The notes under the pieces are model-generated. The model did no database searches. It saw only the letters and a list, made by a program, of their open reading frames with translations, and was not told where the DNA came from. Positions 32,059 through 43,418 of a stretch of 46,186 bases of DNA are shown here, piece after piece. Where the stretch lies: NCBI GenBank assembly GCA_012744475.1, contig JAAYBV010000065.1, forward strand, positions 1-46,186, written 5' to 3'. The DNA is from Phycisphaerae bacterium (GTDB lineage: Bacteria; Planctomycetota; Phycisphaerae; Sedimentisphaerales; Anaerobacaceae). Within the stretch, counting starts at the first letter, position 1; each line of letters opens with the position of its first letter. A program made the translations under genes and the position numbers.

Positions 32059-32391
32059 ATGAAGCGGATCATTGAAGAAGTCTTCGAAACGGAAGAGAAG
32101 GTCAGCGCGATTCTTCGACAGGCGCAGATGCAGGCCTCCGAGATTCGCCAGTCGGCCGAACGGGAGATTTCCGAATCGCTCGGCAGCGCGAAAGACCAAG
32201 CTCGACAGATCATCCAGACGGCCGTCGAGCGGGCCAGGAAAGAGGCTGAGCAGATCCGCGACGAGAGGCTCCGAACGGCCGAACAGGCCAAAGAAATGCT
32301 CGTCGGCAACAGCACCAGGAACCTTGACGGTCTGGTGGAGACCCTTTGCCGGGTGGTACGGACGACGGAGTACGAAACGGACAGCCATTGA
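32059..32391 (+). CDS. V/A-type ATPase subunit H (peripheral stalk, G-like)
   Basis: A 110-aa, almost entirely helical protein. Heptad-like runs rich in Glu, Arg, Gln and Ala (EEKVSAILRQAQMQASEIRQ, RARKEAEQIRDERLR) predict a long coiled coil, as in subunit H/G, which pairs with subunit E to form the peripheral stalks of V/A-type rotary ATPases. Function is read mainly from position, size and coiled coil, since the family is weakly conserved. First gene of the operon; its TGA overlaps the subunit C ATG (TGATG). No clear ribosome site before ATG 32059. Confidence 0.8.
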   Translation: MKRIIEEVFETEEKVSAILRQAQMQASEIRQSAEREISESLGSAKDQARQIIQTAVERARKEAEQIRDERLRTAEQAKEMLVGNSTRNLDGLVETLCRVVRTTEYETDSH

Positions 32392-33458
32392 TGGCCGGTG
32401 CATTGACCAAATACTCGTTCATCAACGCCAAGCTGCGGGCGCGGATCAGCCAGATCCTTCCGGATGAGGTCTTCGGGCAGTTGGCGCAATCGGCGTCTGT
32501 GGACGCAGCTCTGGCTCTGCTGCGCGACACGCCGTTTGCGCCCCTGGAGGAGGTCTACAACAGCACCGGCGATCTCCGGCTGGCGGAGATCGAGCTGCTC
32601 AAGAGCGAGATCGAGCTGTACCGGAACATTCATCGGTACCTCCATGAGAGTTCCCGGCGTCTGGTCGATGTGCTGCTGAGCCAGTTCGAGATCGACAACC
32701 TCAAGAACGCCATACGAATCTACTTCGACCGCAAGGTTCGCGGGCACGTCGACGAATCGGCGGCGCACTACATCCTGTACGAGCCGATCCTCCGTTCGAT
32801 TCCAATGGACATCATCGTCAACGCACGGAGTTTCGACGAGATCGCCGGAGTGTGCCAGGGGACGCCGTACAAGGCGATCATCGAGAAGTACGGCGCGGTG
32901 GTGGAATCGGAAGGCTCGCTGTTTCGCCTGGAGGTGGCGTTCGACCAACTGTACTATGCGGACCTTATCGACGCCATCAACAAACTGGATCGGGTGGACC
33001 GCGAGGTCGCCATCCGCCTGATCGGGGTCGAGATCGACCTCCAGAACATCAGTTGGATCATTCGCTTCAAGAAGTTTTACGACCTTCCCCTCGACGCGGT
33101 CGTGGCAGCGCTGATTCCCGGAGGCTTCCACCTGAACCGCGCGACGATCGACGAGCTGTATCAGGCACAGAACGTCACCAGCGTGCTCCAGAAATTCGTG
33201 GGGGGCGCCCACCCGGGCCTGTCGGCTCTTCTGGCGTCGCAGGCTTCGGACAGCACGTCGCGTCTGATGCTGATCCGACGCATCCTGGAGGAAATCCAGC
33301 GGCATGAGGTTCAGCGCATTCTGGCGGGCTACCCGTTCACCATCGGCATCATCCTGGCCTACTTCATCCTGAAAGCGGACGAACTGAAGAGAATCCGCAT
33401 GATCCTGAACGCCAAACAACTCGGCCGGCCCCTGGAACGCATCGAGAACATGCTATGA
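32391..33458 (+). CDS. ntpC: V/A-type ATPase subunit C (rotor-stalk socket)
   Basis: A 355-aa subunit C (AC39/d type), the funnel-shaped socket that connects the central shaft to the membrane rotor ring. Typical features: KYSFINAKLRARISQILPDE at the N-terminus, repeated three-fold helical units (EIELLKSEIELYRNIHRYLH, LRSIPMDIIVNARSFDEIAG, IGVEIDLQNISWIIRFKKFY), and a C-terminal ILAYFILKADELKRIRMILNAK. The start ATG 32391 overlaps the subunit H stop. The stop overlaps the subunit I start by four bases. Its second place in the operon is unlike the Thermus order. Confidence 0.9.
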   Translation: MAGALTKYSFINAKLRARISQILPDEVFGQLAQSASVDAALALLRDTPFAPLEEVYNSTGDLRLAEIELLKSEIELYRNIHRYLHESSRRLVDVLLSQFEIDNLKNAIRIYFDRKVRGHVDESAAHYILYEPILRSIPMDIIVNARSFDEIAGVCQGTPYKAIIEKYGAVVESEGSLFRLEVAFDQLYYADLIDAINKLDRVDREVAIRLIGVEIDLQNISWIIRFKKFYDLPLDAVVAALIPGGFHLNRATIDELYQAQNVTSVLQKFVGGAHPGLSALLASQASDSTSRLMLIRRILEEIQRHEVQRILAGYPFTIGIILAYFILKADELKRIRMILNAKQLGRPLERIENML

Positions 33459-35476
33459 TTCTCACGACGGCGATGACACAACTTTTTGCGGTGGTTCTGC
33501 GCCGGGATAAGGAGCGGGTGACCGAGACGCTCCTTCGCGAGGGGGTCATGCAGTTCCTCAGCACGTCGGAGTTGGACATCGAGCCCCGGCACAACCAGTC
33601 CGGCGCGGCGCCGGACGCGTCCCTGGCAGAACTGTCCGACATGAGGAAACGGATCGAGGGCATCCTCCACACGGTCGGCACGATTCCGTCGGCGCCCCAG
33701 GAGACCGACCTCCAGAATCGCGCCCCGGTCAATCTGGCCAAGGAGGCCGAGCGTCTGGACCGGATCGACGGAGAGCGCGAGAGCATCCGGGAACGGCAAC
33801 GTTCCCTTCAGCAGGAGATCCTGAAACTCGAAGACCTCCGACGCCAAGTGAACCTCTACGGCGTCGATCTGGGCAAGCTCCAGGCGCCGGCGCGGCAGTC
33901 CATGCTGGCCATGCAGACGGGAAGACTCCCTGCCTCCAACGCCAAGCGCTTCGAGGAATCCCTCAAAGGCCTGCCCGCGCTGCACATGGCGCTGGCACAG
34001 CAGGACGGCATGGTCCACTACCTGCTGTTGTCGATGAAACGCGACCAGGAGCCCATCGAACGAATCCTCTCGAGTGTGGGGTGGACCAAGGTCGAGATGT
34101 CGCAGGAGGTGCTCTCGGCCCGCAAGAATCTGTCGGGTGACCTGACGGCCAAGCTCCAGGCGCTCACGGAGGAGCAGAAGAAGCTCCAGGACCGCGTCAC
34201 CGATCTGATCCGCCAGGAAGAGCCGCACCTGAAGGACTTGTGGGTCCGGCTGCGGATTCAGGAGCTGTGCGCGAAGATTCAGGCCAGCTTCCAGTCGTCG
34301 TCGCGCACGGTCATCTTCGCCGGGTGGCTGGCCTCGTCGATGAAAGAGCGGCTCAGCGCGAAGATCGCCGAGGCCTGCGAGGGCCGCTGCTACCTCGAAT
34401 GGCACGACGCGGACAGCGACGAGACCATCGCCTCCGAGGTGCCGGTCCAGTTCAACAACCCCAAGGTGCTCGCTCCGTTCCAGATGCTGGTGAGCAATTT
34501 TGGCATCCCACAGTACGGGACAATCGACCCGACTCCGTTCGTGATGCCGATCTACCTGATCATGTTCGGGCTGATGTTTGCCGACGCCGGACAGGGCCTG
34601 GTGCTGACACTGATCGGGGCCCTCAGCGCATACCTGACGCGCAACAACCAGGCCAAGCGCGGCACGTACCACCTCTCGTGGCTCATTGCGTGGTGCGGGC
34701 TCTCGGCCATCGTCTTCGGCGTGCTGTTCGGATCGTACTTCGGAAAGGCGCTGTTTGAGCCGCTGTGGTTCGACTTCCACGGGATCGTCGCCGGCCACCC
34801 GGAGACCGGCTCCGTCATCCGCGACGTCTACGACATCCTGTCGATCACCATCTACTTCGGCATCACCGTCATCGTGTTGGGCCTGTTGTTCAACTGGTTC
34901 AATCTGATCCGCACCCGCCGATGGGTGGAGCTGGTCTTCGACAAAGGCGGCATCCTGGGCGGATGGATCTATGGCGGAGGCGTGTACATCGCCTCCTACA
35001 TGGTCGATCACGGCTACAAGGAATTCCCTTCGGGCAACACGGTGTTCCTGCTGGTGGGTCTGCCGGCCCTGCTGCTGCTGATCAAGGAGCCGTACCATCA
35101 TTTCGCCCACGGCAAGGCGCACGCCGAGAAGGCGGGCAATCCGATCTTCCTGGTGCTGACCTTCCTGATGGAGTGGATCGTGGAGCTGCTCGAGATCTTC
35201 AGCGGCTATCTGTCCAACACGCTGTCGTTCATGCGAGTGGCCGGTCTGGGCATCGCGCACGTGTGCCTGATGATCTCCTTCTTCACGCTGGCGGGCATGA
35301 CCAGCGGCGTCTTCTCCGTCCTGATTCTCATCATTGGGAACATCCTGGTGATCGGCCTGGAGGGTCTCTCGGCCGCGATCCAGGCTTTGAGGCTCAATTA
35401 CTACGAGTTCTTCACGAAGTTCTTCCATGGGACCGGGAAGCTGTACACTCCGATCTCGCTGGACAGCGAGCCATAG
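33455..35476 (+). CDS. ntpI: V/A-type ATPase subunit I (membrane ion channel, a-subunit)
   Basis: A 673-aa subunit I. The N-terminal half (residues 1-340) is a soluble coiled-coil arm that holds the peripheral stalks. The C-terminal half has about seven to eight membrane helices (from PTPFVMPIYLIMFGLMFADAGQGL near 353 onward). The channel arginine is Arg594 in NTLSFMRVAGLGIAHV, facing the rotor Glu as in other a-subunits. It follows the GTYHLSWLIAWCGLSAIVFGVLFGS helix and the ILLNWF-type loop. Overlaps subunit C by four bases; 83 bases separate it from subunit K. Confidence 0.93.
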   Translation: MILTTAMTQLFAVVLRRDKERVTETLLREGVMQFLSTSELDIEPRHNQSGAAPDASLAELSDMRKRIEGILHTVGTIPSAPQETDLQNRAPVNLAKEAERLDRIDGERESIRERQRSLQQEILKLEDLRRQVNLYGVDLGKLQAPARQSMLAMQTGRLPASNAKRFEESLKGLPALHMALAQQDGMVHYLLLSMKRDQEPIERILSSVGWTKVEMSQEVLSARKNLSGDLTAKLQALTEEQKKLQDRVTDLIRQEEPHLKDLWVRLRIQELCAKIQASFQSSSRTVIFAGWLASSMKERLSAKIAEACEGRCYLEWHDADSDETIASEVPVQFNNPKVLAPFQMLVSNFGIPQYGTIDPTPFVMPIYLIMFGLMFADAGQGLVLTLIGALSAYLTRNNQAKRGTYHLSWLIAWCGLSAIVFGVLFGSYFGKALFEPLWFDFHGIVAGHPETGSVIRDVYDILSITIYFGITVIVLGLLFNWFNLIRTRRWVELVFDKGGILGGWIYGGGVYIASYMVDHGYKEFPSGNTVFLLVGLPALLLLIKEPYHHFAHGKAHAEKAGNPIFLVLTFLMEWIVELLEIFSGYLSNTLSFMRVAGLGIAHVCLMISFFTLAGMTSGVFSVLILIIGNILVIGLEGLSAAIQALRLNYYEFFTKFFHGTGKLYTPISLDSEP

Positions 35477-35559: not shown

Positions 35560-35937
35560 ATGGATGAGCCGGTACGCAAACTGAAAACCACGATCACGCA
35601 AAGCCTGATTGCCCTCATGACCGTCCTGGCGATTGTCGGGACGCTGTTCTGCTCGAACGCCCTGGCCGCCGAGGCCCCCGACAGCACAACGGTGCAGCCG
35701 GAGACCACGCCGGAGTCGGCTGGAGTCATGAAGTTCGGTCTGCTCGCGGCGGCCGTCGCCTTCGGTCTGGGCGCCATCGGCGCCGGCTTCGCCATCTCCC
35801 ACGTCGGCGCCGCCGCCATGGGCGCCGTCGCGGAGAAGCCCCAGATCGCCGGGCAGGCACTGATCTTCGTGGCTCTGGCAGAGGGCATCGTCGTGTTCGG
35901 ATTCATCACCGCCCTGATGATTCTCGGGAAGCTGTAG
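35560..35937 (+). CDS. ntpK: V/A-type ATPase subunit K (proteolipid rotor ring)
   Basis: A 125-aa ring subunit. Residues 12-36 are a signal-peptide-like segment (SLIALMTVLAIVGTLFCSNALA) with a possible cut before Ala37; then a polar linker and a two-helix hairpin: helix 1 about 57-90 (GLGAIGAGFAISHVGAAAMGA), loop AEKPQ, helix 2 about 96-123. Glu108 in VALAEGIVVFG is the ion-carrying carboxylate. The hairpin is the 8-kDa type, not the doubled 16-kDa type of many V-ATPases. Glu108 is followed by Gly instead of Ser/Thr and no Gln sits in the helix-1 site, which suggests protons rather than sodium (inference). AAAGGA upstream of ATG 35560. Confidence 0.9.
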   Translation: MDEPVRKLKTTITQSLIALMTVLAIVGTLFCSNALAAEAPDSTTVQPETTPESAGVMKFGLLAAAVAFGLGAIGAGFAISHVGAAAMGAVAEKPQIAGQALIFVALAEGIVVFGFITALMILGKL

Positions 35938-35944
35938 CGACACC

Positions 35945-36250
35945 ATGAAGTACTCGATCATAGGCGATGAAGATACCGTCCTGGGTTTCGGCGTCGTGGG
36001 CGTCGCGGGCAGAGTGGCCACCAACGCCGAAGAGGCCCAGCGGGCCTTCCAGGATCTCCTGGGCGACAAGGAGACGAGTATCATCATCATCACCGAGCGC
36101 GTGGCGGAGATGATCCGATCGATCGTGGACCGGTATGTGTTCACCGAGAGCTTTCCACTGATCGTCGAGATTCCGGACCGCCACGGTCCGGTGCCGGGAC
36201 GGCCCGGAATCAAAGAAATGGTCAACACCGCGATAGGACTGAAGATATGA
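35945..36250 (+). CDS. V/A-type ATPase subunit F (central shaft)
   Basis: A 101-aa Rossmann-like subunit F, which binds subunit D in the rotating shaft. It starts KYSIIGDEDTVLGFGVVGV, continues with SIIIITERVAEMIR, and ends PLIVEIPDRHGPVPGRPGIKEMVNTAIGLKI, matching the family nearly throughout. It begins seven bases after the subunit K stop. Confidence 0.93.
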   Translation: MKYSIIGDEDTVLGFGVVGVAGRVATNAEEAQRAFQDLLGDKETSIIIITERVAEMIRSIVDRYVFTESFPLIVEIPDRHGPVPGRPGIKEMVNTAIGLKI

Positions 36251-36319
36251 CCGGCAGATCGCGATTCGTGCGTCTCGACCACCGCCAGGAAGGCCCATGC
36301 CTACGAAGGGACCGTGCTG

Positions 36320-36967
36320 ATGAAGCCCGTTGAGCAGGGAAAAGCGGCTCTGATTTCCGGCATCGAAGCGGACGCCCGCGCCGAAGAGCAACGGCTCCTG
36401 GCGGACGCGCAGGCGCAGGCGGCCGAGAAGAAGAAGTACGCCCAGCAGAAGATCGACGGTATCCTGGACGAGGCCCGGAGCAAGGCGGCCGAGCAGGCCG
36501 AGTCAATCAAACGAAAGGCGATCTCAGGCGTAGAGCTGGAGATCAAGCGGCGCAACCTCCAGGTGCGCGACGCGCTGATCCAGGAGCTCATGGACCGCGT
36601 CGAGAAGAGGCTTGCCGCGATGATCGACGGGCCGGACTACAGAACGGTCCTGACGAGCTGGATCGTCGAGGCCGCTATCGGACTCGACGCCGAGACCGCG
36701 ACGGTCAATGCCTCCGAACGGGAACGGCCTCTGATCGATGCGGCCATGCTCGACCAGGCCCGGCAGGCCGTGCTGTCGAAGACCGGAAAGCACGTGACGC
36801 TGACCCTGTCCGATGCACCACCCCTGAAGGGCCAGGGCGTAGTCTTGACGAGCCGGGACGGACGTATGGCGTTCAACAACCAGGTCCGCACGAGAATGCT
36901 GCGAAAGCAGCGTCAGATGCGCAGACTGATCTATGACGGGCTGTTCGCAAGCCCGCGAGAAGAGTGA
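36320..36967 (+). CDS. ntpE: V/A-type ATPase subunit E (peripheral stalk)
   Basis: A 215-aa subunit E. Residues 1-90 are a long charged helix rich in Ala, Glu, Lys and Gln (EADARAEEQRLLADAQAQAA) for the coiled coil with subunit H; residues about 95-215 form the globular head that grips the catalytic crown (QVRDALIQELMDRVEKRL, GQGVVLTSRDGRMAFNNQVRTRM). ATG 36320 was chosen because CGAAGGG lies at good distance; GTG 36314 is too close to it. The stop is two bases before subunit A's ATG. Confidence 0.9.
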   Translation: MKPVEQGKAALISGIEADARAEEQRLLADAQAQAAEKKKYAQQKIDGILDEARSKAAEQAESIKRKAISGVELEIKRRNLQVRDALIQELMDRVEKRLAAMIDGPDYRTVLTSWIVEAAIGLDAETATVNASERERPLIDAAMLDQARQAVLSKTGKHVTLTLSDAPPLKGQGVVLTSRDGRMAFNNQVRTRMLRKQRQMRRLIYDGLFASPREE

Positions 36968-36969
36968 GT

Positions 36970-38742
36970 ATGATTGACAGAATCATAGGACGGGTCAAGC
37001 GGGTCAACGGCCCGGTCATCGAGGTCATGGGCATCACCGACGCGGAGATGTTCGAACTGGTCCGCGTCGGGGAGGCGAACCTCATCGGCGAGTTGATCAA
37101 GCTCGAGAAAGACAGCGCCATCGTCCAGGTCTACGAAGACACGACGGGCATCGCGCCGCACGACCCGGTCTACGGCGCCGGCATGCAACTGTCGGTCGAG
37201 CTGGGGCCGGGCATGATCGGCACCATCTACGACGGGATACAGCGACCGCTCGAAGCGATTCGCGCGATCTCCGAGATCTTCATCCAGCGCGGCATCTCCG
37301 TTCCTTCTCTCGATCGAAAAAAGAAGTGGCATTTCGTCCCGACCGCCAGGGCCGGCGACCGCCTGGCGGGTGGCACGATCCTCGGCACGGTCCAGGAAAC
37401 ACCCAATCTCCTGCACCGGATTCTCGTGCCGCCGACCGACCAGGGAGTTCTCGAGTCTATCGTGCCGGAAGGCGACTACACGGTCGAGGAAACGATCGCG
37501 GTCCTGAAGACGGACGAGGGGAAGACCAAGGACCTGTTCCTCATGCAGCGCTGGCCGATTCGGGTTCAGCGTCCGACCAGCAAGCGCTTGCCCCTGGAAA
37601 CCCCGCTGATTACCGGCCAGCGGGTGATCGACGCCCTGTTCCCGGTGGCCAAAGGGGGCACCGTCTCGATTCCCGGCGGCTTCGGCACGGGCAAGACCAT
37701 GACGCAACAGGCGGTCGCGAAATGGTGCGACGCGGACCTGATCGTCTACATCGGCTGCGGCGAGCGAGGCAACGAAATCACCGATGTCCTGATGGAGTTC
37801 CCCGAGCTGATCGACCCGCGAACCGGCCGGTCGCTCATGGAGCGGACGATCCTGATCGCCAACACGTCGAACATGCCCGTCTCGGCGCGCGAGGCCAGCA
37901 TCTACACGGGCATCACGATGGCCGAGTACTTCCGCGACCAGGGCTACCACGTCGCGATCATGGCCGATTCGACCTCGCGGTGGGCCGAGGCCCTTCGCGA
38001 GCTGTCGGGGCGCATGGAAGAGATGCCGGCCGAGGAAGGGTTCCCCGCCTATCTGCCGACCAAGATCGCCGAGTTCTACGAGCGGGCCGGCTCGATGGAG
38101 GCCCTCTGCGGACGGAACGGCTCGGTGTCGATCATCGGCGCCGTGTCCCCTCCCGGCGGCGATTTCTCCGAGCCGGTCACCCAGCACACCAAGCGGTTCA
38201 TCCGATGCTTCTGGGCTCTCGACCGGCACCTGGCCAACGCGCGGCATTACCCGGCCATCTCGTGGCTGGACAGCTACAGCGAGTACCTCAGCGGCATGAC
38301 CGGCTGGTGGGAACAGGAGGTCGGCCCGCAGTGGTTCGCCGACCGAACCGAGATCATGGAGCTGCTGCACCGCGAGGTGCGCCTCCAGCAGGTGGTCAAG
38401 CTGGTCGGCCCGGACGCGCTGCCCGACACGCAGCGGTTCATCCTGGAGGTCTGCACCCTGTTCAAGAACGCCTTCCTTCAGCAGAACGCCTACGACCAGA
38501 TCGACGCGTATTCGACCGTGCAGAAGCAGGCCAAGATGATGCACATCATCGCCCTGTACTGGCAGCGCGGCTCCGAGGCGCTCAAGAACGGCGCGACGTT
38601 GATGCAGCTCAAGAAGATGAAAGTGTATCAGGACATCATCAAGATGAAGTTCTCCGTACCGAACGACGATCTCTCCGGCCTGGACAAGATCGAAGCGCGC
38701 CTGGAGCGTGCGATGGATCAGATGGAGGCCCTGCATGCCTGA
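36970..38742 (+). CDS. ntpA: V/A-type ATPase catalytic subunit A
   Basis: A 590-aa catalytic subunit. N-terminal beta-barrel ([16 protein letters not shown]), the non-homologous bulge region of A subunits (about 110-190), Walker A GGFGTGKT (236-243), [13 protein letters not shown] with the catalytic Glu, [14 protein letters not shown], and [17 protein letters not shown]. The C-terminal helical domain is complete. It starts at ATG 36970, or at GTG 36964 which overlaps the subunit E stop. Its stop overlaps subunit B by eight bases. Confidence 0.96.
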
Positions 38743-40135
38743 CGCCAAGAACAGCCGCCTGTTGTCCGGCCGTGAGTACGTCGGCGTCGACAAGATCGAC
38801 GGCCCGCTTATCTTCATCCGCAAGACCCATCCGGTGGGCTACCGGGAACTGATCGAGTGCGTGGACAAAGACGGACACGTGCGGCTGGGCATCGTCCTCG
38901 AATCGTCCACCACCGCCGTGGTGGCCCAGGTGTTCGAAGGAACCTCCGGATTGACCCTGCCCGGGACGCGCGTCCGCTTCTCGGGCGAGCCGCTGACCCT
39001 CTCTGTCTCGAAAGAGATGCTCGGGCGGGTCTTCGACGGACTCGGCCGGCCCATCGACGGCGGCCCCGCCCAGCGCAGCGACGTCGAGCAGGACGTCAAC
39101 GGCATGGCAATCAACCCCACGTCACGGCAATACCCGCGCGATTTCGTGCAGACCGGCATCTCCGCCATCGACGGCATGAACACGCTGATCCGGGGCCAGA
39201 AGCTGCCCATCTTCTCGGGCAACGGGCTGCCGCACAACGAATTGGCCGCCCAGATCGCCCGGCAGGCCAAGATCCGCGGCACCGCCACGGAATTCGCGGT
39301 GGTGTTCGCGGCGATGGGCGTCAAGCACGACGTCGCACAGTTCTTCGTTCGCTCGTTCGAGGAGAGCGGCGTGCTCGACAACGTGGCGCTGTTTCTGTCG
39401 CTGGCCGACGATCCGTCCATCGAGCGGCTGATCACGCCGAGGACGGCGCTGACCCTGGCCGAACACCTGGCCTTCACCGAGGACATGCACGTGCTGGTCA
39501 TCATGACCGACATGACCAACTACTGCGAATCGCTGCGCGAAATCTCCACGATCCGAGGCGAAATACCCTCTCGGAAGGGTTATCCCGGCTACTTGTACTC
39601 GGACCTGGCGGAGCTGTACGAACGCTCGGGCATGATCAAGGGGCGCAAGGGCTCCATCACCCTGCTGCCGATCCTGACGATGCCGAACGACGACATCAGC
39701 CATCCGGTCCCCGACCTGACGGGATACATCACCGAAGGCCAGATCGTCTTCGAGCGGGAGATGGACGGCCGCGGGATCTATCCGCCGGTGGCGGGATTGC
39801 CTTCGCTGAGCCGCCTGATGAAAGACGGCATCGGGGAAGGCATGACGCGCGAGGACCATCCGCACCTGGCCAGCCAGCTCTTTGCGGCCTACAGCTACGT
39901 CAAGGACGTCCGCAACCTCGCTTCGGTCATCGGCGAAGAGGAGCTGACCCCGCTCGACCACAACTATCTGGAATTCGGCAAACTCTTCGAGCAGAAGTTC
40001 GTTTCTCAGCGTAAGGATGAGGATCGCAGCATCGAGCAGACCCTCGATCTGGGCTGGGAGGTGCTGCGGACGCTGCCCGTCGAAGAGCTGCACCGCGTCA
40101 CCGACGAAGAGATTGAGAAGTATTATGGAGGTTAG
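38735..40135 (+). CDS. ntpB: V/A-type ATPase regulatory subunit B
   Basis: A 466-aa non-catalytic subunit that alternates with A in the hexameric head. Shows the B-subunit core: [42 protein letters not shown] in place of a P-loop, [27 protein letters not shown], and [25 protein letters not shown] 38735 has GGAGG six bases upstream; the frame opens earlier inside subunit A and is not family-like. A 136-base gap containing a dispersed repeat follows, the only large gap in the operon besides I-K. Confidence 0.96.
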
Positions 40136-40202
40136 AATCGAATACCGGAACGCAGAAAGCAGAACTGTGGGATCGTCTTCGGCGAGAGCATCGAACAGCA
40201 TT

Positions 40203-40265
40203 CGCGAAGCGAACACCGCGATTTTGATCTTTCCATTCTGGTTTTTGAATCTGAATGCGAAGCAT
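40203..40265. repeat. A/T-rich dispersed repeat inside the V-ATPase operon
   Basis: A/T-rich stretch between subunits B and D. GATTTTGATCTTTCCATT (40220-40237) closely matches the right arm of the hisC-hisB repeat (GATTCTTGATCTTTGCATT, 7910-7928). It interrupts otherwise tightly packed genes. No ribosome site for subunit D is visible just after it. Confidence 0.45.
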
Positions 40266-40271
40266 TAGATC

Positions 40272-40922
40272 ATGGCCCAATTGACCTACGCACCGACGAA
40301 GACGAACCTGCTGCGGTTGCGAAGCGACCTGAGCTTCGCCCAGCAGGGATATGAACTGCTCGACCAGAAGCGGAACATCCTGATCGTCGAACTGCTGGCG
40401 CTGCTGGATCAGACGGTCGACTTTCAGAGCCGCGTGGAGAAGGCCCTGGAGAAGGCCTACGAAGCCCTGGAGGAGGCCATCCTCGACATGGGCAAACTGA
40501 AGGTCCAGTACCTTACGGGCGCCGCGCACATCACGACGGACATCACGGTCCGTTCGCGAAGAGTCATGGGCGTGAGTCTTCCCGTAATCGAGACGCAGTT
40601 CACCGAATACCCGCCGTACTACAGCCTCATGGGCAACAGCTTCTGGATCGACAGCGCGCTGTCGTTCTTCAAGGAGGTGCTCCAACTGCTCGGCAAGCTC
40701 GCAGAGCTGAAGATTTCCGTTCTGCGGCTGGCCAACGAGGTCAAGAAGACCATTCGCAAGGTCAATGCCCTCGAGAAGATCGCCATTCCCGACCTCAAAG
40801 AGACCGTGCACTATATCGAGAGCCGGCTCGAAGAGAATGAACGGGATATGTTCGTGCTCATGAAGATGGTCAAGGAAAACCTGGAGAGAAAAAAGGCAGC
40901 AGCCGACGGAGGCCTCGAGTGA
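40272..40922 (+). CDS. ntpD: V/A-type ATPase subunit D (central shaft)
   Basis: A 216-aa subunit D, the coiled-coil axle that turns inside the A3B3 head. It begins with the family phrase YAPTKTNLLRLRSDLSFAQQGYELLDQKRNIL, has the mid region VMGVSLPVIETQF, and ends with a second long helix (IRKVNALEKIAIPDLKETVHYIESRLEENERD). N- and C-terminal helices pair in the shaft. Last ATPase subunit; its TGA overlaps the GTG of the stress-protein gene. Confidence 0.95.
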   Translation: MAQLTYAPTKTNLLRLRSDLSFAQQGYELLDQKRNILIVELLALLDQTVDFQSRVEKALEKAYEALEEAILDMGKLKVQYLTGAAHITTDITVRSRRVMGVSLPVIETQFTEYPPYYSLMGNSFWIDSALSFFKEVLQLLGKLAELKISVLRLANEVKKTIRKVNALEKIAIPDLKETVHYIESRLEENERDMFVLMKMVKENLERKKAAADGGLE

Positions 40923-41404
40923 GTACCCCAAGAAAGATCCTCGTCTATGTTGATGGGACCGAACAATCGATCACGGCCGCTCAGTATGCGATCTGCATGG
41001 CCTCCTACTTCAAGGCCGATCTGATCGCGCTGTACGTGATCAACACCAAGGCCATGGAAGACCTGCTCAAGGCCCGGATCTTCCTCCAGGACGAGCAAAT
41101 CGAGTACGAACACGACATGGAAGCCGATGCCCAACGGTATCTGAACTATGTCAACGAACTGGCCATCAAGAAAGGCGTTTCCCTGATCCAGAGGAGCAGT
41201 CGTGGGAGCGTCCACAAGGAAATCGTGAATCTGGTCGACGAACAGAACGTGGACCTTCTGGTCATCGGCGAGCTGGCCCGGATTCGAAGCCGGCGCGACG
41301 AGCTGTACGACGAGACCGAGCGCGCCATGCGAATGGTCTCGTGCTCGGTGCTGATCGCCAAGGATGAAGACAAGGTCTGGCAAATGTACGAATCGCTGGT
41401 CTGA
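40919..41404 (+). CDS. universal stress protein (UspA family) coupled to the V-ATPase operon
   Basis: A 161-aa Usp-domain protein: KILVYVDGTEQSITAAQYAICMA at the N-terminus, a mid segment with VSLIQRSSRGSVHKEIVNL, and VDLLVIGELARIRSRRDEL. The ATP-binding pattern G-x2-G-x9-G-S/T of many Usp proteins is absent (GELARIRSRRDELYDETERA instead), so it probably belongs to the class that does not bind ATP. GTG start overlapping the subunit D stop by four bases, so it is translated with the ATPase. A role in tuning the ATPase or in a stress response is inferred from the coupling. Confidence 0.85.
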   Translation: MSTPRKILVYVDGTEQSITAAQYAICMASYFKADLIALYVINTKAMEDLLKARIFLQDEQIEYEHDMEADAQRYLNYVNELAIKKGVSLIQRSSRGSVHKEIVNLVDEQNVDLLVIGELARIRSRRDELYDETERAMRMVSCSVLIAKDEDKVWQMYESLV

Positions 41405-41455
41405 TACGGCGATGGGTGTTGTGGGATCCCACAAGGTATTCAGGAGAAGCAGGGC

Positions 41456-41905
41456 ATGTCGTTGATTGACTTGGTACAAGAGAAGATTGTTAAAATTCCG
41501 CTCGTCTCGACCGATAAGGCGGACGTTCTGCGAGAACTCGTTCAGATACTCAAAGACGCCGGTGAGATCGAAGATTACGATGCCGTGCTTCGGGCCATTT
41601 GCGAGCGGGAAGAGAAACTGAGTACCGGACTGGAGAGTGGGATCGCGGTCCCGCACGGAAAGACCGAGGCCGTGTCCACACTGAAGCTGGCGCTGGGCAT
41701 CGCACCGCAGGGGATTGACTTCGCCTCGATCGACCGAAAACCGTCCCAGTTGTTCTTCATGCTGGTGGCACCGCCCAACCAGTCGGGGCCTCACGTGGAA
41801 GCCCTGGCCGAGATCGTCAAGCTGGTCCAGTCGAAGGCGTTCTGCCGGGCCGTCACCGCCGCCAAAGACGCCCACGAGGTCGTCGAGTTGATCAAGGGAG
41901 AATGA
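41456..41905 (+). CDS. PTS EIIA-like domain protein (fructose/PtsN type)
   Basis: A 149-aa single-domain EIIA of the fructose/mannitol/nitrogen-regulatory class. The phosphorylation site is His67 in LESGIAVPHGKTEAV; REEKLSTGLE precedes it, and LFFMLVAPPNQSGPHVEALAEIVKLV is the typical following strand-helix. The length is that of a stand-alone protein. No other PTS component (EI, HPr, EIIB, EIIC) is in the window, so a regulatory role like PtsN fits better than sugar transport (inference). It follows the stress protein after 51 bases with AGGAG upstream, on the same strand as the ATPase genes. Confidence 0.88.
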   Translation: MSLIDLVQEKIVKIPLVSTDKADVLRELVQILKDAGEIEDYDAVLRAICEREEKLSTGLESGIAVPHGKTEAVSTLKLALGIAPQGIDFASIDRKPSQLFFMLVAPPNQSGPHVEALAEIVKLVQSKAFCRAVTAAKDAHEVVELIKGE

Positions 41906-41936
41906 GAAGAAACACGCCCTGCGCAGGAGCGTTCAC

Positions 41937-42000
41937 AGCCTTCGGATTTGTAGCATTCGGGTTTGTTTCGGATTCCGTGCTTCGTGCTTCGGACTTGCAC
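41937..42000. repeat. dispersed T/G-rich intergenic repeat, copy 2
   Basis: TTCGGATTTG, CATTCGGGTTTGTTTCGGATT and related words between the convergent EIIA-like and hemL genes. Shares vocabulary with 13955-14014. The 98-base gap holds no gene. Confidence 0.45.
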
Positions 42001-42003
42001 CCG

Positions 42004-43311
42004 CTAAGGGTGAATGGCAGTCTGGAAGCTCTCGCGGGCGGCCTGGATCGTCCGTTCGATGTCCGAATCGGTGTGCGCCAGCGAGACGAACATCGCCTCA
42101 TAGGCGCTGGGGGCCAGATACACGCCGCGTTCGAGCATCCCGGCGAAAAACCGCTTGAAGCAGGCAATGTCCGTCGTCTGCACGTCGGCGAAGTTGCGCA
42201 CGGGCCGGTCGCAGAAGAACCCGCTGAGGATAGATCCGACACGGTTGATAGTCAGGGGCACGCCGGCCCGGGCCGCAGCATCGGCCAGGCCCGTTTCCAG
42301 CGCCGCCGACAACGATTCCAGCCGCTCGTAACAGCGCGGCCTCGCCAGCAGATCGAGCGTCGCGACCGCCGCGGCCGTCGCAATGGGGTTGCCGCTGAGG
42401 GTCCCAGCCTGGTAGACCTTCCCCGCCGGAGCCAACCGGTCCATGATCCCGGCCCTGCCTCCGAACGCCGCCAGCGGCAGTCCCCCGCCGATGATCTTGC
42501 CCAGGCAAGTCAGGTCGGCATGCACACCGTAGAGTTCCTGCGCGCCGCCGAAGGCGACGCGGAAGCCGGTGATCACCTCGTCAAAGATCAGCAGGGCGCC
42601 GTTCTCGTCACAGAGCCGCCGCAGCGCTGCGAGATAGCCTTCCGCCGGGGAGACTACCCCCATATTGGCGGCGACCGGCTCGACCAGCACAGCGGCGATC
42701 CGGTCTGGATGGTTCTCGAAGGCGGCGGCCACCGCCGCAGCGTCGTTGTATGGCACCACCACGGTCAATTTCGCCAGCGCCTGCGGCACACCCGGACTGG
42801 AGGCCGTGCCGTGCTCGGCCACACCCGAGCCGGCCGCAACCAGAAAGGAATCGCTGTGGCCGTGATAGCAGCCGGCCATCTTGACGATCGTGTCCCGCCC
42901 GGTGAACGCCCGAGCCAGGCGCACGGCGCTCATCACCGCCTCGGTCCCGCTGCTGACGAGCCGGACTTTCTCGATGGAAGCCATCGCATCGACGATCCGC
43001 TCGGCCAGCGCCGTCTCCGCCAGCGTGGGCGCGCCGAAGGAGGTCCCCCTGTCGACCGCCTTGTGAATCGCGGCGATTACGTCTGGATGGGCGTGCCCCA
43101 GAATCATCGGACCCCAGGAGCCCACATAGTCGATATACTCGCGGCCGTCGACGTCAAAGACCCTGGCGCCCCTGGCGGAGGCGATGAAGACCGGTCCGAT
43201 ATCCACGCCGCCAAAGGCGCGGACGGGGGAATTGACCCCTCCGGGCAGGAGCCGGCACGCCGCGGCGTAGGCTGCCTGCGACCGGGCATGTCTGTCGTGC
43301 GTGTCTTTCAT
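42004..43311 (-). CDS. hemL: glutamate-1-semialdehyde 2,1-aminomutase
   Basis: A 435-aa PLP enzyme that makes 5-aminolevulinate for haem synthesis (C5 pathway). Motifs: LLPGGVNSPVRAFGGVD near the N-terminus, SWGPMILGHAHPDV, SSGTEAVMSAVRLAR, GCYHGHSD, FDEVITGFRVAFGGAQE, and the PLP lysine Lys272 in TCLGKIIGGGLPLAAFGGR. Length is typical (E. coli 426). ATG 43311 starts the family N-terminus; 34 upstream in-frame codons are discarded. There is no Shine-Dalgarno sequence, and a promoter candidate sits immediately upstream. Convergent with the EIIA-like gene. Confidence 0.96.
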   Translation of the reverse strand: MKDTHDRHARSQAAYAAACRLLPGGVNSPVRAFGGVDIGPVFIASARGARVFDVDGREYIDYVGSWGPMILGHAHPDVIAAIHKAVDRGTSFGAPTLAETALAERIVDAMASIEKVRLVSSGTEAVMSAVRLARAFTGRDTIVKMAGCYHGHSDSFLVAAGSGVAEHGTASSPGVPQALAKLTVVVPYNDAAAVAAAFENHPDRIAAVLVEPVAANMGVVSPAEGYLAALRRLCDENGALLIFDEVITGFRVAFGGAQELYGVHADLTCLGKIIGGGLPLAAFGGRAGIMDRLAPAGKVYQAGTLSGNPIATAAAVATLDLLARPRCYERLESLSAALETGLADAAARAGVPLTINRVGSILSGFFCDRPVRNFADVQTTDIACFKRFFAGMLERGVYLAPSAYEAMFVSLAHTDSDIERTIQAARESFQTAIHP

Positions 43312-43319
43312 GAGCGTGC

Positions 43320-43348
43320 ATGGTACGCCGATCGCTCGGCGGATGCAA
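43320..43348 (-). promoter_or_regulatory. promoter candidate of hemL
   Basis: On the minus strand: TTGCAT (43348-43343), 17 bases, TACCAT (43325-43320). The -10 box ends nine bases before the hemL ATG, leaving at most a two- or three-base leader. Confidence 0.4.
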
Positions 43349-43418
43349 CCGGCGCGCCGTAATTCGCAGACCGAGCCCCGTTTCCGTGCGTTCGGGAGGA
43401 ACCTGGTGCACATTTTTC

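Follow-up and report, generated by a model that had tools for sequence, protein, structure and literature searches.

A Usp gene adjoining the rotor subunit D gene in one clade of bacterial A/V-type ATPases, with an EIIA gene added in a nested subgroup

The analysed stretch of DNA (46,186 nucleotides of a Phycisphaerae contig, hereafter the window) carries a plus-strand block of A/V-type ATPase genes, in which subunits A, B, C, D, E, F, I and K were all recognized by Pfam and NCBIfam profiles. The block ends with genes for a universal stress protein (Usp) and a PTS EIIA protein, and its features are as follows:

32059–32391, plus strand: short peripheral-stalk-like subunit (E/H-like), first gene of the block (PF01991, 25.1 bits, cut-off 24.2)
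32346–33458, plus strand: ATPase subunit C (AC39) (PF01992, 212 bits)
33455–35476, plus strand: ATPase subunit I (a) (PF01496, 97.4 bits)
35560–35937, plus strand: ATPase subunit K (c ring) (PF00137, 52 bits)
35945–36250, plus strand: ATPase subunit F (PF01990, 87.2 bits)
36314–36967, plus strand: ATPase subunit E (PF01991, 86.9 bits)
36964–38742, plus strand: ATPase catalytic subunit A (NF003220, 872.5 bits, cut-off 470)
38708–40135, plus strand: ATPase subunit B, given from the first possible start, the true start perhaps lying further in (NF003235, 728.5 bits, cut-off 349)
40272–40922, plus strand: ATPase subunit D, the central rotor subunit, of the Usp-linked clade (PF01813, 181.5 bits; tree of 159 D proteins)
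40919–41404, plus strand: Usp, its start overlapping the D stop (GTGA), lacking the strict ATP-loop glycine motif (PF00582, 59.9 bits, cut-off 24; alignments; predicted model)
41456–41905, plus strand: EIIA (PTS_EIIA_2) with the phospho-His at residue 67 (PF00359, 118.7 bits, cut-off 27)

A convergent class-III aminotransferase gene lies directly past the block at 42004–43413 (PF00202, 267.7 bits). The junctions agreed with the initial annotation, which had placed the Usp start inside the D stop codon and the EIIA gene 51 bases after Usp on the same strand: the D stop TGA occupies 40920–40922 and the Usp start GTG 40919–40921, giving the four-base overlap GTGA. A consensus scan of positions 40100–42300, which is weak evidence, detected no promoter-like site and no plus-strand terminator-like site between the D, Usp and EIIA genes. 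The three terminator-like sites found in this interval all lay on the minus strand beyond EIIA and were not in excess of shuffled sequences (mean 2.3).

To follow the D–Usp adjacency in related genomes, we searched the family of the window with a profile for subunit D, which was present in 67 of 89 genomes, and took 30 loci. A D protein of the window type (71–100% identity) was encoded at 22 of these loci; Usp lay directly after D in all 22, and an intact EIIA followed Usp in 20. The remaining eight loci carried a distant D (27–31% identity), with neither Usp nor EIIA in their 1.5 kb flanks. The genome of the window has only three Usp-domain matches at E 0.001; with so few matches per genome, yet adjacency in 22/22 family genomes, the arrangement goes beyond chance. 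At one family locus (G087) the contig ends just past Usp; an EIIA of the ATPase type is found on another contig, 180 bases from its start. Another genome (G075; L045:6835-7320, contig C68) has a deletion that removes the His and leaves a single open frame in which Usp residues 1–115 run into the final third of EIIA; it keeps D and the rest of the ATPase block (L072) despite this natural loss of the phospho-His.

Across the phylum, a narrow Usp profile (E 1e-25) matched only two of 392 genomes (G000, that of the window, and G248). The near-absence outside the family that this suggested was ruled out by a D profile (E 1e-50) run on the same sample, which recovered seven genomes outside the family, six with a more divergent Usp adjoining D and the seventh cut by a contig end. 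A scan of named genomes gave 28 loci, with phyla assigned as the genomes are labelled. Planctomycete records of sufficient length showed the gene order H-C-I-K-F-E-A-B-D-Usp-EIIA, and records labelled Fibrobacterota, Chitinivibrionales or Spirochaetota showed the end part of this order. At E 1e-20, Usp was found in 6/150 genomes of the Chitinivibrionales group, with D before and EIIA after in all six, and in 30/198 genomes of the Spirochaetota group, with D adjacent in 28, a contig end in one and relocation together with EIIA in one (G647); EIIA followed Usp in 12 of these 30. In a further small phylum (three genomes) Usp was present in two, one reading B-D-Usp and the other with its contig ending before D, and EIIA followed neither. 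A planctomycete-only quirk was therefore ruled out by the D–Usp pairs of the Spirochaetota and Fibrobacterota groups. At two spirochaete loci without EIIA (L151, L157), Usp is followed by a short protein and then by genes resembling, by eye, DnaJ and methionine aminopeptidase.

We further examined the association on a phylogeny of subunit D itself. As a D-first control, PF01813 matched in 145 of the 198 Spirochaetota-group genomes and 30 loci were used first; a second sample comprised 60 more D places among the matches listed, with Usp matches left out, and is thus Usp-depleted. The tree of 159 D proteins combined the D-first Spirochaetota loci, the planctomycete loci and the Usp-first loci. 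Linked members supplied the profile with which the D and Usp genes were found, but linkage was not an input of the tree. The results revealed one branch of 95 D proteins (SH-aLRT 93) in which Usp was adjacent in 83, not adjacent in 11 and cut in one, whereas Usp adjoined none of the 64 D proteins outside it. The label 'none' required six changes on the tree, compared to a mean of 53 after shuffling. Since the tree was built by a quick method and contains several long branches, including L237, L198 and L184, its finer placements are uncertain. Restricting the count to D-found loci, with clade membership read from the tree, left Usp adjacent in 52/63, the Spirochaetota part coming from among the matches listed: 22/22 in the family, 6/6 in other Planctomycetota, 7/9 in the first Spirochaetota sample and 17/26 in the Usp-depleted second sample. 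Thus the check for conserved adjacency in related genomes came out in favour of the initial annotation. Adjacency in 83 of the 94 clade members with room for it, against 0/64 outside, makes a functional link between D and Usp well supported. Chance adjacency was ruled out by the same pattern, common within one D clade and absent outside, and a trait of all V-ATPases was ruled out by the outside-clade D proteins, including that of the second ATPase in the genome of the window (contig C6, L039), which lack Usp.

EIIA was present at 38 of the 83 D–Usp loci and lacking in 45, a few of which end at a contig edge, so that the core association is D–Usp, with EIIA added in a nested subgroup. The 11 exceptions in the clade, with no Usp adjoining D, comprised eight from the Usp-depleted sample (L198, L234, L236, L240, L242, L243, L244 and L246), together with L179, L184 and the long-branch L237. 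L198, from a 1.1 Mb genome (G690), is a long-branch clade-type D without Usp, which suggests loss of Usp in a reduced genome. L179 is the clade-type D of G647, the genome with the relocated pair; its ATPase-type Usp–EIIA pair lies on another contig (L150:6166-7152, contig C130) with no D in 16 kb.

The spacing of the genes was also conserved. In 57/83 loci Usp could start in frame within an overlap with the D stop (four-base overlap in 32, eight-base in 11), and in 75/83 its start overlapped D or lay within 30 bases of it; the start taken was the in-frame ATG, GTG or TTG nearest overlap, a choice that favours overlap. EIIA began 1–225 bases past Usp in the 38 EIIA-bearing loci. In three genomes (G565, 16 kb; G771 and G810, 18 kb each; loci L142, with EIIA, L156 and L157), the stretch around D–Usp contained no A or B gene. 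Since D and Usp were kept together where no A/B gene was found within 16–18 kb, the tie of Usp seems to be to D itself.

The Usp of the window belongs to the Usp superfamily by its PF00582 score and by its predicted model (mean pLDDT 89, pTM 0.85), which matches solved Usp structures; the top PDB fold matches were TeaD (3hgm, E 5.5e-09, 20% identity), a cAMP-bound mycobacterial Usp (5ahw) and MJ0577. The initial annotation had remarked on the absence of the usual ATP-binding glycines. By the definition of the ATP-binding motif in the accessible text of PMC8214093, G-2x-G-9x-G(S/T), the strict motif was indeed absent, and it proved to be missing throughout this Usp subfamily, with no local oddity: it occurred in none of the 90 Usp sequences that the retrieved loci contained, so the protein falls outside the ATP-binding UspFG type. 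One of the 90, the other Usp of the genome (contig C11), keeps the three glycines with K in the last motif place. The model is weakest over the ten residues standing in place of the ATP loop (mean pLDDT 54). Residues 40–75 were strongly conserved in the alignment of family Usps, and mean column identity was 50% across 47 diverse members. A decayed Usp was ruled out, as the strict motif is missing subfamily-wide and the remaining sequence is conserved.

The EIIA of the window is a type 2 protein by its PF00359 score and its phospho-His. His67, reported as intact, lies in IAVPHGK, and His occupied this place in all 41 full-length rows of the alignment (two rows representing one locus; a 42nd row is the G075 remnant), ruling out a dead His. 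The protein scored below the curated cut-offs of the PtsN equivalog (TIGR01419, 61.4 vs 138.7 bits) and of the fructose PTS IIA (TIGR00848, 98.4 vs 103.5 bits). The claim that no other PTS gene lies nearby held as regards EIIA and HPr, of which the window contains none other than 41456–41905; the six other EIIA matches and the single HPr match of the genome lie on other contigs, and there the picture differs, with EIIA, HPr and EI encoded together on contig C8. The absence of nearby PTS genes hence does not imply a missing donor, and a cell without a phosphate donor was ruled out by the HPr and EI elsewhere in the genome. HPr was found in 81/89 family genomes, including all 22 with the window-type D, and so does not track the ATPase.

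EIIA of the ATPase type (at least 265 bits) was detected in 22/89 family genomes, namely 21 of the 22 with the window-type D (not G075) and G005, where only 67 bases of contig precede the gene, so that its neighbour is out of view; the next-scoring EIIAs in family genomes reached at most 149 bits. The EIIA tree, in which few branches were well supported, was broadly like the D tree. The genome of the window also encodes a solo EIIA (L038:6134-6592, contig C69; 250 bits) that is 70% identical to the EIIA of the window, with neither Usp nor ATPase D near it in 14 kb. A TPR protein is encoded upstream of this solo EIIA, and on contig C41 an EIIA is fused to a helix-turn-helix domain (HTH_17; L041:7299-8018).

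To place the arrangement among known systems, we compared it with Usp and EIIA proteins described at transporters. TeaD is a Usp of Halomonas elongata that modulates the ectoine transporter TeaABC and, according to the accessible part of PMC9006882, is encoded beside it, as the Usp of the window, for which TeaD is the best fold match, is encoded beside ATPase subunit D. TeaD is described there as ATP-binding, whereas the Usp of the window lacks the strict loop motif and its partner would be a rotary ATPase. Non-phosphorylated PtsN (EIIA-Ntr) binds TrkA and KdpD and thereby controls ion transport, according to the accessible part of PMC3665714. PtsN is a PTS_EIIA_2 protein like the EIIA of the window, which differs in its sub-threshold TIGR01419 score, in being encoded in an ATPase block and in its putative target. 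KdpD offers a Usp domain that likewise lacks the ATP motif and serves ion-transport control, and such domains bind c-di-AMP in the accessible text of PMC8214093; that domain is part of a histidine kinase, while the Usp of the window is a free protein whose gene lies beside an ATPase subunit gene. The genome of the window itself encodes an 829 aa fusion of a Na+/H+ exchanger (Na_H_Exchanger), a Usp-like part and EIIA (L044:2011-4500, contig C19), in which two similar domain types are attached in the same order to an ion transporter and the EIIA part has His at the aligned place. It differs in being one polypeptide, and its Usp-like part scored 21.4 bits, below the Pfam cut-off of 24, and did not match the D-linked Usp profile. 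Other bacterial A/V-type ATPases share this Pfam family for subunit D, but none of the 64 D proteins outside the clade had an adjoining Usp. The V-type ATPase genes of Chitinispirillum are given as KIDBACE, with Usp and EIIA unmentioned in the accessible part of PMC4814513. The initial annotation had called such a control module undescribed, and our literature search, which left most subscription papers outside its scope, likewise found no account of a Usp or EIIA paired with a rotary ATPase. Transporters controlled by Usp or EIIA proteins are known, whereas a rotary ATPase as partner of such proteins is, as far as we found, undescribed.

In the reading we prefer, to which we give about an even chance, Usp is a dedicated accessory of this A/V-ATPase clade, coupled to D and likely bound to V1 as a gate of the pump, and was later joined in one subgroup by an EIIA switch acting through EI, HPr and His67. 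Usp would be made in step with D through the overlapping stop and start codons, and would most likely bind soluble V1 near the central stalk and gate pumping. The EIIA gene would have been added later in the nested subgroup. His67 could be phosphorylated via EI and HPr according to PEP/pyruvate supply, and the phospho-state of EIIA may alter the action of EIIA or Usp on the ATPase. Our guess, modelled on EIIA-Ntr and TrkA, is that unphosphorylated EIIA restrains the pump. We infer, with the initial annotation, that energy state or phosphotransfer may tune the ATPase.

Gene order alone cannot separate a regulator from an assembly factor. The strongest rival explanation is that Usp serves the assembly or stability of D, being made beside it at the ribosome and not acting as a sensor, with EIIA as a looser regulator. 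In its favour, the overlap is specifically with D, Usp is kept with D away from A/B, and the strict ATP-loop motif is missing. However, the Usp precedents, as far as the accessible texts on TeaD and KdpD go, are regulatory, regulation fits better with the exchanger–Usp–EIIA fusion and with the gain of an EIIA that can be phosphorylated, and the 11 clade members lacking an adjacent Usp also speak against an assembly role, which we consider unlikely. The precedents of TeaD, PtsN and KdpD together with the exchanger fusion lead us to favour a Usp that binds and regulates V1, with an EIIA switch in one subgroup.

Usp and EIIA proteins have many targets, and the two could be general stress and carbon-status proteins merely co-expressed with the pump and acting elsewhere. 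The lone ATPase-type EIIA on contig C69 and the G647 pair away from D are consistent with this explanation, but across phyla Usp is confined to a single ATPase clade and, there, to the position adjoining D, which argues against it, as do the Spirochaetota matches to the Usp profile, of which all adjoin D apart from the one at a contig end and the relocated one; we regard it as rather improbable. Least probable in our view, the main input of Usp would be another ligand, e.g. c-di-AMP or cAMP, with EIIA as a second and independent input, a proposal that draws on the c-di-AMP binding of the KdpD domains lacking the same ATP motif and on the cAMP-bound 5ahw among the best fold matches.

Accounts of bacterial A/V-type ATPases usually centre on the core subunits. 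A bolder extension of the preferred reading, a dedicated Usp accessory with a later EIIA switch, is that the whole clade carries an extra, so far unrecognized subunit with a regulatory role, namely a Usp that lacks the ATP loop and is bound near the rotor shaft, and that to this Usp a PTS phospho-switch was later added so that PEP/pyruvate would directly gate a rotary ATPase; we put this forward tentatively, as possible but on the doubtful side. An additional gene, conserved beside the gene of the rotor subunit in several phyla, is a concrete candidate for a regulator or accessory subunit, and the D–Usp overlap provides a gene-neighbourhood marker of this ATPase clade. In the subgroup with EIIA, the added step would couple carbon supply to ion pumping via a phospho-switch.
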